From Chloroflexota bacterium (GTDB taxonomy: Bacteria; Chloroflexota; Dehalococcoidia; Lucifugimonadales; Lucifugimonadaceae), in assembly GCA_002712125.1 (NCBI GenBank), contig PASL01000029.1, forward strand, positions 9,239 to 23,369: a stretch of 14,131 nucleotides of DNA. Reading direction: 5' to 3'. The first letter of the stretch is position 1; every line of letters starts with the position of its first letter. The notes beneath the pieces were generated by a model. The model was not told the origin of the DNA. It saw nothing but the letters and a program-made list of their open reading frames with translations, and made no database searches. Positions 3,962-11,945 of this stretch are shown here, in pieces. The position numbers were made by a program, and so were the translations under genes.

Positions 3962-5134
3962 ATGGCAAATTCTACAGGTAAAATCAAAAGTATTGAGATA
4001 AGGTTTTTAGAAGCAAAATTAAATAAACCATTTGGTTGGTCTCAAAGATGGACCACATCAAGAAGTATCATAATATTAAAACTTACAACTTCAGAAAATT
4101 ATGTAGGTTGGGGCGAAACATACGGGTCATACAATTCTTGTATTGAAATGAAATCTTTAGCTGAATTAGTTATTGGGCAAGATTCAGATAACATAAACAA
4201 AATTAATAATAAAATTTTTTCTCAAACATTTCAAAGTCATGCCTTCGCTGGGTCAGCTTCATCTTTTATGAGTGCATTAGATATTGCTTTATATGATATA
4301 AGGGGTAAATTTCTAAATGAACCTATATCTACGCTTCTTGGTGGATGTTTGAAAAGAAATATCCCAGTTTATGCTACAGGCTTATATTATCTTGAAGGTT
4401 TTCCAATAAAGCCGCATTTAGATGAAGCACTTGGATATATTAAGGAGGGTTTTACAGGGATGAAAATGAAGGTAGGTGGATTATCTATTAGTGATGATGC
4501 AAAAAGAGTCAGTCAAACAAGAGAGGCAATTGGCCCAAATATTAAGCTTATGATTGATGCAAATGAAGCTTACGACAAAAGAACGGCTTTAGAGTTGTCT
4601 GAACTTATCAGTCAAGATAATATAACATGGTTTGAAGAACCGTGTCCATCTAGGGATTTTCACAGTAATCGTTATGTTACAGAAAATTCAAAAATTCCTA
4701 TTTCTGGTGGGGAGTCACTTCACACAAGTCTAGAATTTTCTAGAGTGATTTCAGATAATGTTTTTGATATTATCCAACCTGACATCTGCTCTGTAGGTGG
4801 GGTTTCTGAAATGAGAAAAGTTGGAAATATGGCTAATTCTTTTGGAGTAAAAATAAATCCTCATTTTTGGGGTACTGGTATAAGTTTTTCAGCTGTTTTA
4901 CATTGTATGTCGGTTCAGCGAATTTTAAATAACAGTCAAGTAAATGCTCCTTATGAAAATCAATCAGTATTAGAATTTGATCAAACTCCTCATCCTATTA
5001 GAGATGAATTGACGGATAAGTTTATTATTAAGAATAGTACGGTAGAAGTTCCTCAAAAACCTGGTTTAGGTATAGAAATTAACGAAGATGTTTTAGATAA
5101 ATATCTTAAAGGAGAAATAATAAATGTCTACTAG
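3962..5134 (+). CDS. Enolase superfamily, MR subgroup; D-galactarolactone cycloisomerase-like
   Basis: This 390-aa protein has the two-part enolase-superfamily layout: a capping domain (about 1-130 plus the C-terminus) and a modified TIM barrel. Active-site landmarks are K168-M-K170 on the second strand, metal ligands D199 (MIDAN), E225 (WFEEP) and E251 (SGGES), and the D274 (QPD)/H301 (NPHFWGTG) dyad. This is the full mandelate-racemase-subgroup set with bases on both faces. The PHFWGTG motif, the LEFDQTPHP stretch (337-344) and the tail PGLGIEINEDVL resemble D-galactarolactone cycloisomerase (Gci) more than classical mandelate racemase. Substrate is therefore probably an aldarolactone or acid sugar, by inference. 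It is the first gene of the operon and overlaps the next by 11 bp. Another MR-subgroup dehydratase activity is the main alternative. Confidence 0.88.
   Translation: MANSTGKIKSIEIRFLEAKLNKPFGWSQRWTTSRSIIILKLTTSENYVGWGETYGSYNSCIEMKSLAELVIGQDSDNINKINNKIFSQTFQSHAFAGSASSFMSALDIALYDIRGKFLNEPISTLLGGCLKRNIPVYATGLYYLEGFPIKPHLDEALGYIKEGFTGMKMKVGGLSISDDAKRVSQTREAIGPNIKLMIDANEAYDKRTALELSELISQDNITWFEEPCPSRDFHSNRYVTENSKIPISGGESLHTSLEFSRVISDNVFDIIQPDICSVGGVSEMRKVGNMANSFGVKINPHFWGTGISFSAVLHCMSVQRILNNSQVNAPYENQSVLEFDQTPHPIRDELTDKFIIKNSTVEVPQKPGLGIEINEDVLDKYLKGEIINVY
5108..5114 (+). promoter_or_regulatory. Shine-Dalgarno for the DapA-like gene, inside the upstream CDS
   Basis: AAAGGAG ends 9 bp before the ATG at 5124 and lies inside the 3' end of the preceding enolase-family gene. 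It supports the overlapping start and coupled translation. Confidence 0.7.
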
Positions 5135-6068
5135 CAATATTCCAGATATTGATCCTATTATAGTTGCGCCAACAAATTTACCTGTAAAAGATGATGATTC
5201 ATTGGATTATGATGCATTATCAAGAAATATTGAAAAATTTTGTGATACTGCTCTTTCTGGATTCGTTGTTGGAAGTTATGGTGGAGAAGAATTTCACATA
5301 AGTGAGCAAGAGAAAGTTATGGCAATGAAAACTGTATCAGAGGCTCATAGCGGAAGAAAATTTGTTATTGCTGGAATCGATGCTCTTTCTCCAACAGAGG
5401 CTATTAGAATGTCTGAACTTTATGCAAAAAATGGTGCTGATATGATTAGAGTTAGAATTCCTCCATCATCTCCTCAACATTACCACAAAAAACCTAATCA
5501 GGAATCAATACAAGATTATTTTGAAAAAATCTCTAAAAATAGTCCTTTACCTATAATTCCAATACATCAACCAAAAGCCCCTGGAGGGGTTGATATATCT
5601 CCACAAGAGTTATCTGATATAACTTCAATGGATAATATGTTTGCATACATACATTCCCTAAATTTTAGGTATGAGACTAGGATGCCTGCTTTTATAAACC
5701 CAAAAGTTAAGTTTTGGTCTTGTAACGGCGCTCTACTTCTCCCATCCGGAATGCTAGGAGCTGTTGGGGCTTGTTTACTTTTTGGTAATTGGGGTCCACA
5801 TATAGCTAGAGATATAATAGATTTTTGCATGAATAAACGATTTGAAGAAGCACAAAAACTCCAACAAAAAATTAATTGGATTGATTTTTTGGGTATTTCC
5901 TGGGGAGTTGGAGTGCAAAAGGCAGGACTAAACTTACTTGGTTATGAAGGAACAGTACCTAGAAAACCGAATTTACCATTAAATTTAGACCAAATTGAAG
6001 AGATAAAAGATGCTCTTATCTTTGCTGGAATATTGAATTCAGATGGATCTCCAGCACCACAAATATAA
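5124..6068 (+). CDS. DapA/N-acetylneuraminate-lyase-fold protein lacking the usual catalytic Lys and Tyr
   Basis: This 314-aa protein follows the DHDPS/NAL family from end to end: an N-terminal GSYGGEEFHIS (50-60) in place of GTTGESPTLS, then VIAGIDALSPTEAI, then PLPIIPIHQP (141-150), ALLLPSGMLGAVGA (203-216) and AGILNSDG at the end. Family members act as class I aldolases or dehydratases on 2-keto acids. In a by-eye alignment the catalytic Tyr (IIYNVP) falls on I147 and the Schiff-base Lys (GIKE) on I176, next to H177. The GXXGE loop has one extra residue, and PPYY reads PPSS. Nearby lysines K194 and K196 sit one strand later. The fold is therefore clear but the reaction is not. Placement between two acid-sugar enolase members suggests a role on 2-keto-3-deoxy acids, or a changed chemistry. 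Confidence 0.85.
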   Translation: MSTSNIPDIDPIIVAPTNLPVKDDDSLDYDALSRNIEKFCDTALSGFVVGSYGGEEFHISEQEKVMAMKTVSEAHSGRKFVIAGIDALSPTEAIRMSELYAKNGADMIRVRIPPSSPQHYHKKPNQESIQDYFEKISKNSPLPIIPIHQPKAPGGVDISPQELSDITSMDNMFAYIHSLNFRYETRMPAFINPKVKFWSCNGALLLPSGMLGAVGACLLFGNWGPHIARDIIDFCMNKRFEEAQKLQQKINWIDFLGISWGVGVQKAGLNLLGYEGTVPRKPNLPLNLDQIEEIKDALIFAGILNSDGSPAPQI

Positions 6069-6082: not shown

Positions 6083-7381
6083 ATGACGACAGATATTTCT
6101 AAAAATTCTAGTCCTAGCGACTTAAAAATTACAGACATGAGAATTGCTGTGGTAGGTAAAGGAGGTTGGAGATGGCCGATAATTAAGATATTTACTAATC
6201 AAGATATAATTGGTTTGGGTGAGGTACGTGACGGGGCATCTGCTAGATACGCACTGATGCTCAAAAGTAGGCTTTTAGGAGAAAACCCTTGTGAAATTGA
6301 TAAATTATTTCAAAAGATCAAACAATTTGGAGGTCATGGTAGGCTAGGAGGGGGTGTTTGTGGGGTAGAGATGGCACTTTGTGATCTTGCTGGTAAAGCG
6401 TACGGTGTTCCTGCTTATATGCTTGCTGGAGGCAAATATCGAGACAAAGTCAAAGTATATGCTGATACACCTCTAAAAAAGGATCCTAAAGAAATGGGAG
6501 AAGCATTGAAAGGTAGAATGGAGAGGGGTTTTGAGTTTTTGAAGATGGATATAGGTTTGTGGATTGCTTCAGAATTTGAAAATGGAGTTATTAATAAAAA
6601 AGAAATTAAAGAATCTGCAACAATTATGCATCCTTTTACTGGTATACAAGTTACCGATTATGGGATTTCTAAAATGAAAGACTACGTTTCAGCTGTTCGT
6701 GATGTGATTGGTTATGAAATTCCTCTTGCTTCTGATCATTTTGGTCATATGGGTGTAGAAAATGCAATAAGAATTGGCAAAGCTTTAGATGAATTTTCAT
6801 TAGCTTGGTATGAGGATATGATACCTTGGCAATTTGTTGATCAATGGAAGATGCTAAAAAATAGAGTCGATACCCCAGTTTGTACGGGTGAAGATATATA
6901 CCTTAAATCAGGGTTTGAACCTCTAGTTGAAGAAAGAGCGATATCGGTTGCTCATCCTGATTTAGCGACCTCAGGTGGAATTATTGAAACTAAAAGAATA
7001 GCTGATTATTGTAGAGATGCCGGAATTGGCGTAGCATTACATCAAGCTGGTTCCCCTGTAGTAGCTATGGCTAATGTTCATTGTGCAGCTGCAATTGATA
7101 ATTTTATAGCACTAGAAATGCATTCTGTAGATCATCCATGGTGGGATGATTTGGTTAGTATTGTGGGAGCAAATGATAAGAAAATTATTAATGAAGGATA
7201 TGTCAATGTTCCATCAGGACCAGGTTTAGGTATTGAACTAAATGAAGAAGTTATAGAAGAATATTTGGCTGATCCAGCATCTGATAAACGTGGAAGATTT
7301 TTCTCTGTTTATCCGAAAGGATTATTTGAAAGTACAGATGAATGGAATGATATTGACTCACATGATAGAACATGGAGTTAA
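6083..7381 (+). CDS. Divergent enolase-superfamily enzyme, probable acid-sugar dehydratase
   Basis: This 432-aa protein is longer than its window relatives. Second-strand residues are K154-M-D156 in place of KxK. Metal ligands are D218 (ASDHFGH), E244 (WYEDM) and E270 (CTGED), followed by D293 (HPD), H320 (ALHQAG) and E345 (ALEMH). An insertion of about 30 residues (roughly 158-195) between barrel strands 2 and 3 recalls the active-site loop of D-mannonate dehydratase. The tail after PGLGIELN runs on for about 50 residues (DPASDKRGRFFSVYPKG). At D218 the order is D-H-F-G-H, whereas galactonate dehydratase has D-F-H-G-R, so the usual x-His position is Phe and His flanks it. A dehydratase on a sugar acid is the best guess; the exact substrate is unknown. 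It is third in the operon and convergent with the MFS gene, 3 nt apart. Confidence 0.85.
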   Translation: MTTDISKNSSPSDLKITDMRIAVVGKGGWRWPIIKIFTNQDIIGLGEVRDGASARYALMLKSRLLGENPCEIDKLFQKIKQFGGHGRLGGGVCGVEMALCDLAGKAYGVPAYMLAGGKYRDKVKVYADTPLKKDPKEMGEALKGRMERGFEFLKMDIGLWIASEFENGVINKKEIKESATIMHPFTGIQVTDYGISKMKDYVSAVRDVIGYEIPLASDHFGHMGVENAIRIGKALDEFSLAWYEDMIPWQFVDQWKMLKNRVDTPVCTGEDIYLKSGFEPLVEERAISVAHPDLATSGGIIETKRIADYCRDAGIGVALHQAGSPVVAMANVHCAAAIDNFIALEMHSVDHPWWDDLVSIVGANDKKIINEGYVNVPSGPGLGIELNEEVIEEYLADPASDKRGRFFSVYPKGLFESTDEWNDIDSHDRTWS

Positions 7382-9554: not shown

Positions 9555-10697
9555 TTAAATGTATGCAATTGAGTTGTCGGGGTATACTCTGTCGCCTCTA
9601 TGCCATGATTTTTTGTAAGGATATTTATTGAAAAATTCATAATTAATATCTATGCCTAAACCAGGTCCATCAGGTAGTTGGTAAAATCCTTCGACCACTT
9701 TAGGGGTATTTGTCACTGACTCTATTTCATTTTCTTTATAAGCCCTAGTTTCTTGTATTAAGAAATTGGAAGTTGCTGTATCAAAGTGTAAATTTGCAAT
9801 GGTTGCCAAGGGGCCCATAGGGTTATGAGGGGCTACTGTAAGATCATGGGCTTCAGCTATAAATGCAATTTTTCGCATTTCTGTAATACCTCCTACTATA
9901 CATAATTCTGGTTGTAGGATATCAACAGCGTTCTCCCTAATTAGATCCCATAATTCAAATTTTGTGTAAAGGCATTCTCCAGTAGCTAGTTTACATTCCA
10001 TTTTTTCCCTTAATTTTCCCATTTCATATCTATTTTCCATTCTAATAGGCTCTTCTAAAAACCATGGATTAAACTCTAGTAATACATCTGATAATTCTAG
10101 TACTCTTACAGGTTCGAAAATAGCCGCGTGTGCATCAAATCCAACCTCTATATTATCTCCTATTGCATTTCTAATAGCTAAAAATCTTTCTCTAGCATCT
10201 TTTAAAGCTTGGTTCCATGTCATATCTCTCCAGTTAGGGTTGAATGGGCTTGTCTTAAGCGCTGTGTATCCTTTGTCAGCATATTTTTTTGCGTCGTCAG
10301 CAAGCTCATTAGGGGTGGCTCCATGAATATCAAAATATGCTCTAATTTTATCTCTGTATTTACCACCCAGTAATTCATAAACGGGCATATTTAAGTGTTT
10401 ACCTTTTATATCCCATAAACTTTGATCAATTCCTGATAGAGCAGATAAACCAGATGACCCGATAGGAAATCTTGCTCCTTGGTAACACAAAGCCCAATTT
10501 CTTTCTATCTCAAAAGCATTTTGTCCAATTAGTTGTTCAGCAAAATATTCAACCCATGCAGGCGCCGCCTTATCGGGACCTACATGATAGATTTCCCCAA
10601 CTCCATAAAGCCCAGATTCTGTATGTGTTTTAACATACACAAGGTTTCCATTATTTTTATGGCTAGATAAGAGACACTCTATTTTTGTTATTTTCAT
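9555..10697 (-). CDS. Enolase superfamily, galactonate-dehydratase-like
   Basis: This 380-aa protein has a capping domain with SALSGIDQSLWDIKGK near 85-100, then a barrel. Catalytic landmarks are K148 (ALKTSP), D188-A-H190 (FDAH), E215 (FLEEP), E241 (ATGEC), E264 (QPE) and H291 (APHNPMGP), with E316 near the end. The D-x-H pair and PHNPMGP are the pattern of D-galactonate dehydratase (DgoD) and related acid-sugar dehydratases. The residue paired with the His base is usually Asp (QPD); here it is Glu. An AAGG Shine-Dalgarno (10706-10709) precedes the ATG by 8 bp. It lies 24 bp downstream of a paralogue in the same operon and is convergent with the SDR. Substrate could be galactonate or another aldonate. 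Confidence 0.88.
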   Translation of the reverse strand: MKITKIECLLSSHKNNGNLVYVKTHTESGLYGVGEIYHVGPDKAAPAWVEYFAEQLIGQNAFEIERNWALCYQGARFPIGSSGLSALSGIDQSLWDIKGKHLNMPVYELLGGKYRDKIRAYFDIHGATPNELADDAKKYADKGYTALKTSPFNPNWRDMTWNQALKDARERFLAIRNAIGDNIEVGFDAHAAIFEPVRVLELSDVLLEFNPWFLEEPIRMENRYEMGKLREKMECKLATGECLYTKFELWDLIRENAVDILQPELCIVGGITEMRKIAFIAEAHDLTVAPHNPMGPLATIANLHFDTATSNFLIQETRAYKENEIESVTNTPKVVEGFYQLPDGPGLGIDINYEFFNKYPYKKSWHRGDRVYPDNSIAYI

Positions 10698-10721: not shown

Positions 10722-11861
10722 TTATAGAAAGCCAGGAGAACCATCTTGATAATTCTTAAAGCCTCTATCCCATTTCATTGGAGGATTTTTTGATATTTCT
10801 TTATGGTTTAAACTCATTCCTAACCCTGGTTTGTTAGGAAGATTGAAAAAACCATTAACAGGATACCAATTTTCATTGATAAATTTAGATTTTTCTTTTT
10901 TGTTATCGCCATGCCATTCTAAAATGACAAAATTATTAATTGAGGCCGCATGATGAACACTAGCGGCTGTACTAATAAGGCCCAAGGGGTTATGAGGAGC
11001 GACTGTTATGTAGTGTGCTTCGGCAATTGAAGCGATTTTTTTTGCCTCTAAAAGTCCTCCGCAACAAAGTAAATCTGGTTGGATAATATCAACACTATTT
11101 GAGTTCATTAGTTCAGTGAACCTGTGAATACCATACAAATTTTCTCCTGTGGCTAAAGCAACTCTAATATTTTTCTTGATTTCATGGCTTGATTTTACAA
11201 AATCTGCTCTAGCTGGTTCTTCAATAAACATAAGATTATAATTAGATAAAGTGTTAGAAAGTTCAATAGACTTTGAAGGTTCAGGTATTGATGTGTGAAA
11301 GTCAACTGCAAGATCTACCTCATCCCCAATAATGCTTCTTATAATACTAAGTCGCTTATCCGCTTCTTTTACTGCATCTAGCCAGTTAATAGTTCTCCAG
11401 TATGAAGGAAGTGGGCTAGTCTTAAAAGCTGTATAGCCTTCCTCCATCAAGGATAAAGCGTTATTGCCAACTTCTTCAGGTGAGTCACCATATATTGCAT
11501 GATAAACTCTTACCTTATTTCTAGTGGCTCCTCCAAGTAAAGAATAAACAGGTTGATTAGAATCTTTACCCATTATGTCCCATAGTGCTATATCTATGCC
11601 AGATAGGGCAGACCAGCCAACTTGTCCTAAGGGGAATCGAAGATTATTTTTAGCTCTTTTTAGAAGCCACTCTATCCTCGAAGGGTCTTCTCCTATAAAC
11701 CATGGTCTGATTTCTTCTATAAAAGAAATTACAGATTTGTCAGGTCCTATAGAGTAACATTCACCTGTGCCAACAATTCCATCATTAGTTACAATTTCAA
11801 TGAATATATTGTTTCTTGTACCGTCTGATGCATGAAAAATATCAATGCTTTTAATAATCAT
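10722..11861 (-). CDS. Enolase superfamily, galactonate-dehydratase-like (paralogue)
   Basis: The protein has 379 aa if the ATG at 11861 is used. A GTG six codons upstream (11879) is open, but the sister gene starts MKITKIE, matching MIIKSIDI here, so the ATG is preferred. In this numbering the landmarks are K147 (AFKTSP), D187-F-H189 (VDFH), E214 (FIEEP), E240 (ATGEN), D263 (QPD), H290 (APHNPLG) and E315 (ILEWH). It shares with its neighbour the TSP segment after the lysine, the IxEPxxxIELS stretch, and a tail of the form W-x-RG-(x)n-Y-x-D. All DgoD-type catalytic residues are kept. It is the first gene of a two-gene minus-strand operon, with its promoter in the AT-rich region to the right. 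A different stereochemistry of substrate from the sister is likely but unproven. Confidence 0.87.
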   Translation of the reverse strand: MIIKSIDIFHASDGTRNNIFIEIVTNDGIVGTGECYSIGPDKSVISFIEEIRPWFIGEDPSRIEWLLKRAKNNLRFPLGQVGWSALSGIDIALWDIMGKDSNQPVYSLLGGATRNKVRVYHAIYGDSPEEVGNNALSLMEEGYTAFKTSPLPSYWRTINWLDAVKEADKRLSIIRSIIGDEVDLAVDFHTSIPEPSKSIELSNTLSNYNLMFIEEPARADFVKSSHEIKKNIRVALATGENLYGIHRFTELMNSNSVDIIQPDLLCCGGLLEAKKIASIAEAHYITVAPHNPLGLISTAASVHHAASINNFVILEWHGDNKKEKSKFINENWYPVNGFFNLPNKPGLGMSLNHKEISKNPPMKWDRGFKNYQDGSPGFL

Positions 11862-11945
11862 AATAAAAAAATTTAGCACTTATAAATGACTTTGTCACTA
11901 TGTTAAATGTGGATATTACACCTTGTTTTAGTTTGTAGGCATGCC

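Follow-up and report, generated by a model that had tools for sequence, protein, structure and literature searches.

Gene organization at the locus

The window analysed here is a 14,131-nucleotide stretch of contig PASL01000029.1 (positions 9,239 to 23,369, forward strand) from a Chloroflexota bacterium that is probably a member of the marine SAR202 group; coordinates below are those of the window. It holds four enolase-superfamily genes, two of which, MR1 and MR2, flank a gene for a protein of the DHDPS/NAL family that has no lysine at the Schiff-base position (the lysine-less gene). The features of this gene run are as follows.

3962..5134, + strand: MR1, enolase-superfamily protein, likely a sugar-acid dehydratase, directly upstream of the lysine-less gene (PF13378, 192.7 bits)
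5110..5114, + strand: Shine-Dalgarno-like AGGAG, 9 bases 5′ of the ATG, read in the sequence
5124..6068, + strand: lysine-less DHDPS/NAL-family protein, 314 aa; intact ORF with an ATG start and a PF00701 match
6083..7381, + strand: MR2, enolase-superfamily protein, conserved neighbour of the lysine-less gene (PF13378, 154.9 bits)

The Shine-Dalgarno sequence and intact frame described in the initial annotation were both found, and the start of the uninterrupted 314-codon frame overlaps the end of MR1 (5134) by 11 bases. The nearest solved chain to MR1 is galactonate dehydratase (5olc). Alignment of MR2 with 2qq6 matches an Asp, two Glu and a His, which we take to be the metal ligands and the base.

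The product of 5124-6068 is homologous to PF00701 (DHDPS/NAL) over its full length, as the initial annotation had proposed in stating that it follows the family from end to end. A Pfam profile search matched residues 15-298 to PF00701 (95.1 bits; cut-off 22.1), which was the sole family reported at E 0.01, with no match to PF03737 (RraA-like, class II) at this threshold; all 28 members of a set of relatives (A1) also match PF00701. Profile-profile alignment of the lysine-less clade described below against Lys-bearing members (hhalign) gave 100% and E 4e-51. The protein had seven matches to NCBIfam equivalog models (dapA, KDG aldolase, HpaI-not-DapA, two NanA models and two KdgD-type models), all seven under the curated cut-offs. 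Weak matches to PEP_mutase (11 of 28 members) and DeoC (4 of 28) were considered as a hint of metal-enolate chemistry and rejected as a register shift between barrels; in the members shown, the weak match joins residues about 15-164 to profile positions 68-226. None of 10 Lys-bearing members gave such a match at E 0.01.

Loss of the catalytic lysine and tyrosine

In an alignment to E. coli DapA, NanA and YagE, Ile147 of the window protein aligns with the catalytic Tyr133 and Ile176 with the Schiff-base Lys161, whereas hhalign placed a one-residue gap at Lys161, flanked by Tyr175 and Ile176. Because the two alignments differ here, the register at Lys161 is uncertain by one residue; a lysine stands at the canonical position in neither reading, and the absence of both catalytic residues, on which the initial annotation was built, is thus borne out. 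The two sites are listed below with their counts among the relatives described in the next paragraph.

5562..5570, + strand: I147-H148-Q149, with Ile at the catalytic Tyr position followed by a clade-specific His-Gln (Tyr in 0 of 119 relatives)
5646..5651, + strand: Y175-I176, the Schiff-base lysine position (Lys in 0 of 119 relatives and in 21 of 21 other family members)

Relatives were collected with a profile built from 28 sequences, matches being taken at E 1e-45 or better. Within the order, 82 of the 247 genomes had matches to this profile, at 119 places. The residue-level reading took in these places and one more (in G037); one fragment (L197) misses the site, leaving 119 relatives, from five families of the order, that could be read over it. 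At the lysine column these have Ile (106), Val (9), Leu (3) or Asn (1), and at the tyrosine column Ile (114) or Met (5), so that none of the 119 has the lysine restored. Since the lysine is present in 21 of 21 other family members (hereafter ordinary members), the loss is not a matter of chance. The tyrosine is not strictly defining, five of the 21 having Gln at that column. Across the phylum, 12 of 400 genomes matched the profile. Three of them belong to the window's own family and are lysine-less; the other nine hold 10 matched places (E 1.7e-55 to 8.3e-46), all 10 of which have both Lys and Tyr.

The lysine and tyrosine were not lost in isolation. Thr44 and Thr45 (now Y52 and G53), Tyr107 and Arg138 in E. 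coli DapA numbering are also replaced in the window protein, and across the clade the old proton relay and carboxylate site were replaced together. The loss of these four residues went unmentioned in the initial annotation. Its inserted residue in the GXXGE loop disappeared on realignment: S51-Y52-G53-G54-E55 aligns with G43-T44-T45-G46-E47 without gaps in hhalign, the GE being kept, the first Gly changed to Ser and the XX changed to Tyr-Gly. The PPSS that it read in place of PPYY is present, and an insertion follows PPSS in the three window-genus proteins only; in other members the loops here are short and variable.

Origin and maintenance of the clade

Maximum-likelihood analysis of 85 proteins placed the 64 lysine-less ones in one clade (support 100/100), apart from the 21 Lys-bearing ones, and the lysine label required one change on the tree versus a mean of 19 in shuffles. 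The stem of the clade is very long (2.48 changes per column), and the tree program warns of long branches meeting.

The dN/dS ratio was 0.037-0.070 for three pairs within the window's genus and 0.017-0.055 for eight of ten pairs in the sister genus g8, the other two g8 pairs being not computable and dS being saturated in several. We conclude from these ratios that the lysine-less protein is maintained, and they rule out pseudogene decay. Misalignment, a frameshift or an assembly error might be invoked for the missing residues, given a draft genome in 34 contigs and a lysine column that is ambiguous by one residue; with 119 relatives in agreement, two alignment methods that both lack the lysine and dN/dS far below 1, we find such an artefact scarcely credible.

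The gene is not universal among close relatives. Some nearly complete genomes of the family are without it (for example G067, 97% complete), and one window-genus genome (G019) had no match to the clade profile; the window's genome has one copy. No relatives of the lysine-less protein were found in viral contigs. On plasmids, 303 records matched by similarity, all at less than 60% identity, the best of the 40 listed being at 28.1%. Within the openly licensed PMC literature, no published account of this branch was found among the matches listed.

Candidate positions for a relocated lysine

The initial annotation suggested that the lysine chemistry had moved to K194 or K196 on the next strand, in which case the protein would still be a class I aldolase. 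K196 is Lys in 52 of 119 relatives, which gives this idea some footing; K194 is Lys in only 17 of 119, and the other residues at the two columns are Arg, Pro, Gln and others, so that neither position is kept as a catalytic lysine would be. One lysine is invariant:

5919..5921, + strand: K266, the sole invariant lysine, probably structural (Lys in 118 of 118 covering rows and in 19 of 21 ordinary members)

Besides K266, which is Lys in 64 of 64 tree members, no column reaches at least 80% Lys among them. K266 aligns with a lysine of human HOGA1 that lies two residues after a Gly, a placement that fits Lys289, whose salt bridge to Glu80, in the GXXGE loop, has been reported (PMC3188589). Because it aligns with this salt-bridge lysine and is kept in ordinary members, K266 is most likely structural, and the pair that it would form with E55 is retained in the clade. 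As the tyrosine and the carboxylate-binding threonines have gone too, we consider a Schiff-base lysine relocated to another strand highly improbable.

Residues newly fixed in the clade

Positions elsewhere in the protein became fixed in the clade with residues that are rare or missing in ordinary members.

5277..5291, + strand: Y52-G53-G54-E55-E56, where the carboxylate-binding Thr44/Thr45 are replaced; E56 is clade-specific (117 of 117 covering rows, 0 of 21 others)
5379..5381, + strand: D86, aligned with E. coli DapA G78 (Asp in 114 of 117 and Glu in 3 of 117; Asp in 0 of 21 others)
5448..5456, + strand: R109-V110-R111, aligned with E. coli DapA L101-V103 (each 119 of 119)
5667..5675, + strand: R182 and E184 (R182 in 112 of 119, with Leu in 7; E184 in 119 of 119; both 0 of 21 others)
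5715..5729, + strand: W198 and N201-G202 (118, 112 and 112 of 119)

Thus the clade has fixed Glu56, Arg109, Arg111, Gln149, Tyr175 and Glu184, and Asp86, His148, Arg182 and Asn201 are nearly fixed. Among the 21 ordinary members, R109 and Y175 (119 of 119 in the clade) occur in none, R111 and Q149 (119 of 119) in three each, W198 in one and N201 in three; clade position 201 is Ser in 7 of 119. H148 is present in 114 of 119 relatives, with Asn in the other five, and His occurs in one of 21 ordinary members.

Active sites of such barrels lie at the C-terminal ends of the strands. Alignment to DapA would put most of the new residues close to this end of strands 2 to 7, presumably in the active-site region of the barrel. 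An AlphaFold model made from three near-identical sequences had a mean pLDDT of 39.9, too low to place them.

Conservation of the gene neighbourhood

The operon context noted in the initial annotation is conserved: the order MR1, lysine-less gene, MR2 was kept in all three window-genus genomes that have the gene. Of 17 g8 loci, 15 include an MR2 orthologue in the run of genes and 14 an RraA-like gene. The two that do not include MR2 are L016 and L033, and L033 sits at the edge of its contig. The one g8 RraA-like gene tested by Pfam matched PF03737 with 70.7 bits. MR2 is also downstream in G075, where its frame continues into a segment similar to the end of the RraA-like protein. In the window's genus, no RraA-like gene was observed next to the lysine-less gene, and the window's genome has only distant RraA-like proteins, in five places and at 23-33% identity.

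Enolase-superfamily genes are abundant in these genomes, with 36 PF13378 hits in the window's genome and 78 in G040, a 3.09 Mb single-contig genome of a sister genus. The enolase expansion reported for SAR202 group I (PMC6946804, PMC10444878) is one of the grounds for the probable SAR202 assignment. G040 resembles the cultured SAR202 strains, for which 80 enolase-family genes and about 3.08 Mb are given (PMC10444878). In G040 and G042, a divergent lysine-less paralogue follows a different enolase-superfamily gene. The two lysine-less copies of G040 are closer to enolase-superfamily genes than would be expected, with 5.1% and 1.1% of random loci as close, in a proximity test chosen after seeing the data.

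Other subclades have different surroundings. MR2 and the RraA-like gene were absent from all six g6 loci as far as the flanks reach; the leucine biosynthesis gene leuD is adjoining or one gene away upstream in five of six f6/f30 loci, and an acyl-CoA dehydrogenase gene is upstream in two of five f34 loci. G023 and G024 have a Lys-bearing DapA-family gene immediately upstream of their lysine-less gene and TauE next to it, in a setting of the 5-oxoprolinase/methylcitrate-type cluster, with methylcitrate-type genes further on in G024. Given these leucine-biosynthesis, acyl-CoA dehydrogenase and 5-oxoprolinase/methylcitrate-type neighbours, a single role in sugar-acid metabolism may be too narrow for the clade as a whole.

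The tandem arrangement in G023 and G024 raises the possibility that the lysine-less protein is a non-catalytic pseudoenzyme, which has kept the barrel and its assembly surfaces and pairs with or regulates another protein such as a Lys-bearing DapA-family enzyme. The loss of the canonical catalytic residues and the retention of the E55 and K266 structural pair are both consistent with this idea. However, among the 33 longer-flank loci (L100-L132), of which some are short, a profile search that may miss distant members detected a tandem Lys-bearing gene in only two, and the single-copy gene of the window's genome had no DapA-family neighbour among the window genes scanned. Moreover, several charged residues that are missing in ordinary members became invariant, and a dead site needs none. 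We therefore regard a pseudoenzyme as somewhat unlikely; strong selection together with the newly fixed charged residues favours a working pocket over a dead one.

Proposed function and mechanism

Schiff-base catalysis in the clade is very unlikely, because the clade has lost its lysine, its tyrosine and the threonines that bind the carboxylate, and a lysine-free NAL keeps only trace activity: the K165C mutant has 0.09% of kcat/Km in the table of PMC3792637, and its text gives a 720-fold cut in kcat/Km. Since lysine and tyrosine were lost in every member examined while other charged residues were fixed, the protein probably catalyses a reaction different in kind from that implied by its aldolase annotation. 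Of the two options in the initial annotation, a moved lysine fails on the variability of K194 and K196, and new chemistry on an acid-sugar product appears the better one, in view of the newly fixed polar residues and the dehydratase-like neighbours.

We infer that the protein is an enzyme, and likewise its substrate, its metal and its reaction. Sugar acids are proposed as the context for the window's subclade because its neighbours are enolase-superfamily proteins resembling acid-sugar dehydratases, and the substrate would most likely be made or used by the neighbouring MR2. The arginine pair R109/R111 may hold the carboxylate of a substrate derived from a sugar acid, and E56, D86, H148 and E184, together with Q149 and N201, may carry out acid-base catalysis. 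A divalent metal could perhaps sit at the centre of the new site, as in class II pyruvate enzymes. The step itself might be a hydration, dehydration, isomerisation, epimerisation or lactone opening; any of these seems likelier than cleavage into pyruvate and an aldehyde, because the operon of the sister genus g8 encodes its own RraA-like (class II-type) aldolase.

The same neighbourhood bears on another reading, in which the mechanism was switched and the reaction kept, the protein being an ordinary 2-keto-3-deoxy acid aldolase or hydratase that works through a metal-bound enolate. The acid-sugar dehydratase-like neighbours suit such an enzyme, lysine-free mutants such as NAL K165C retain trace turnover, and in the window's genus, where the RraA-like genes are distant and only elsewhere in the genome, the lysine-less protein could supply the cleavage. 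In g8, however, the RraA-like aldolase adjoins in 14 of 17 loci, which would make a second cleaving enzyme redundant, and we judge this reading unlikely.

Our preferred reading is that this branch of the DHDPS/NAL fold, old and specific to its lineage, gave up Schiff-base chemistry and remodelled the active site to become a sugar-acid-linked enzyme; we give this roughly an even chance. Its more specific form, in which the lysine was lost a single time on the line of descent to this Chloroflexota order and the result is an active, Schiff-base-free enzyme for a dedicated, undescribed step of sugar-acid breakdown, we hold tentatively, at a little under even.

If correct, this would be a natural swap of mechanism within one fold, with a whole clade kept under strong selection without the lysine. 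COG0329 is among seven paralogue sets proposed for non-phosphorylative sugar pathways in cultured SAR202 strains (PMC10444878); should the lysine-less proteins fall within the counted COG0329 set, an aldolase role would be wrong for them. With two lysine-less copies in G040, which may itself be such a strain, tests with a cultured host may be possible.

Comparison with known members of the family

The superfamily has been described as sharing a Schiff-base-forming catalytic lysine (PMC13398020), and even KdaD, which has Glu in place of the tyrosine, is described there within the family with a catalytic lysine. The nearest relatives in the tree, ten Lys-bearing Chloroflexota DapA-family proteins (L090-L099), likewise keep both lysine and tyrosine in 10 of 10 cases, unlike the clade, although support for any one exact sister is weak.

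DapA (E. coli; M. jannaschii 2yxg) belongs to the same Pfam family and aligns with the window protein from end to end, but Thr44, Thr45, Tyr107, Tyr133, Arg138 and Lys161 of the E. coli enzyme are all replaced, and the window protein scores 75.3 against a cut-off of 206 for the dapA NCBIfam model. A separate DapA-like gene in the window's genome (L006) has both YNVP and the lysine. The family members of sugar-acid pathways, namely KDG aldolase, NanA and 5-dehydro-4-deoxyglucarate dehydratase, resemble the lysine-less gene in the kind of pathway that its neighbourhood suggests, and here too the scores fall well below the curated cut-offs (58.8 against 390, 55.4 against 281 and 29.7 against 374, respectively).

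The best solved-structure match of the clade profile is human HOGA1 (PDB 3s5n/3s5o; 140.6 bits, E 6e-40). Both have the GE of the GXXGE loop as well as the structural Lys/Glu pair. HOGA1 is reported to require Lys196 and Tyr168 and to use Ser77 and Asn78 (PMC3188589). None of these four residues is kept in the window protein, although the position of Asn78 is Asn in 64 of 117 clade members.

Gene neighbourhoods of the lysine-less gene

Four enolase-superfamily genes lie within an 8-kb stretch of the window, two of which flank the lysine-less DapA-family gene, and matches to the enolase-superfamily domain PF13378 number 36 in the 1.36 Mb of the window's genome.

Enolase-superfamily genes in the window
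3962-5134, flanking gene (MR1)
6083-7381, flanking gene (MR2)
9555-10697
10722-11879

At two loci, L128 and L132, the lysine-less gene is directly preceded by a Lys-bearing DapA-family gene and a gene for the beta subunit of Na+-transporting oxaloacetate decarboxylase, in a run that also holds LamB/YcsF and carboxyltransferase genes (families assigned by Pfam for L128 and by gene clustering for L132). At five loci from two other families of the order (L100, L102, L103, L104 and L106), the lysine-less gene is the last of its run, with leuD either adjoining it or preceding it by one gene; leuA and leuC are also present in the longer runs (L102, L103 and L104). Family names for these runs were taken from L102, and the remaining loci were assigned by clustering.

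Lys-bearing proteins with Gln at the Tyr position

The alignment also revealed a second unusual DapA-family group, in which the Schiff-base Lys is retained and Gln replaces the catalytic Tyr (5 of the 21 Lys-bearing members), three of them encoded in the window's genome.

Members with Lys kept and Gln for Tyr
L003
L004
L007
L128, 6506-7399
L132, 6915-7814

L007 and a further match, L008, on contigs C2 and C25 of the window's genome, have equal match scores and the same gene length; this pair may represent a duplicated contig end of the draft assembly.
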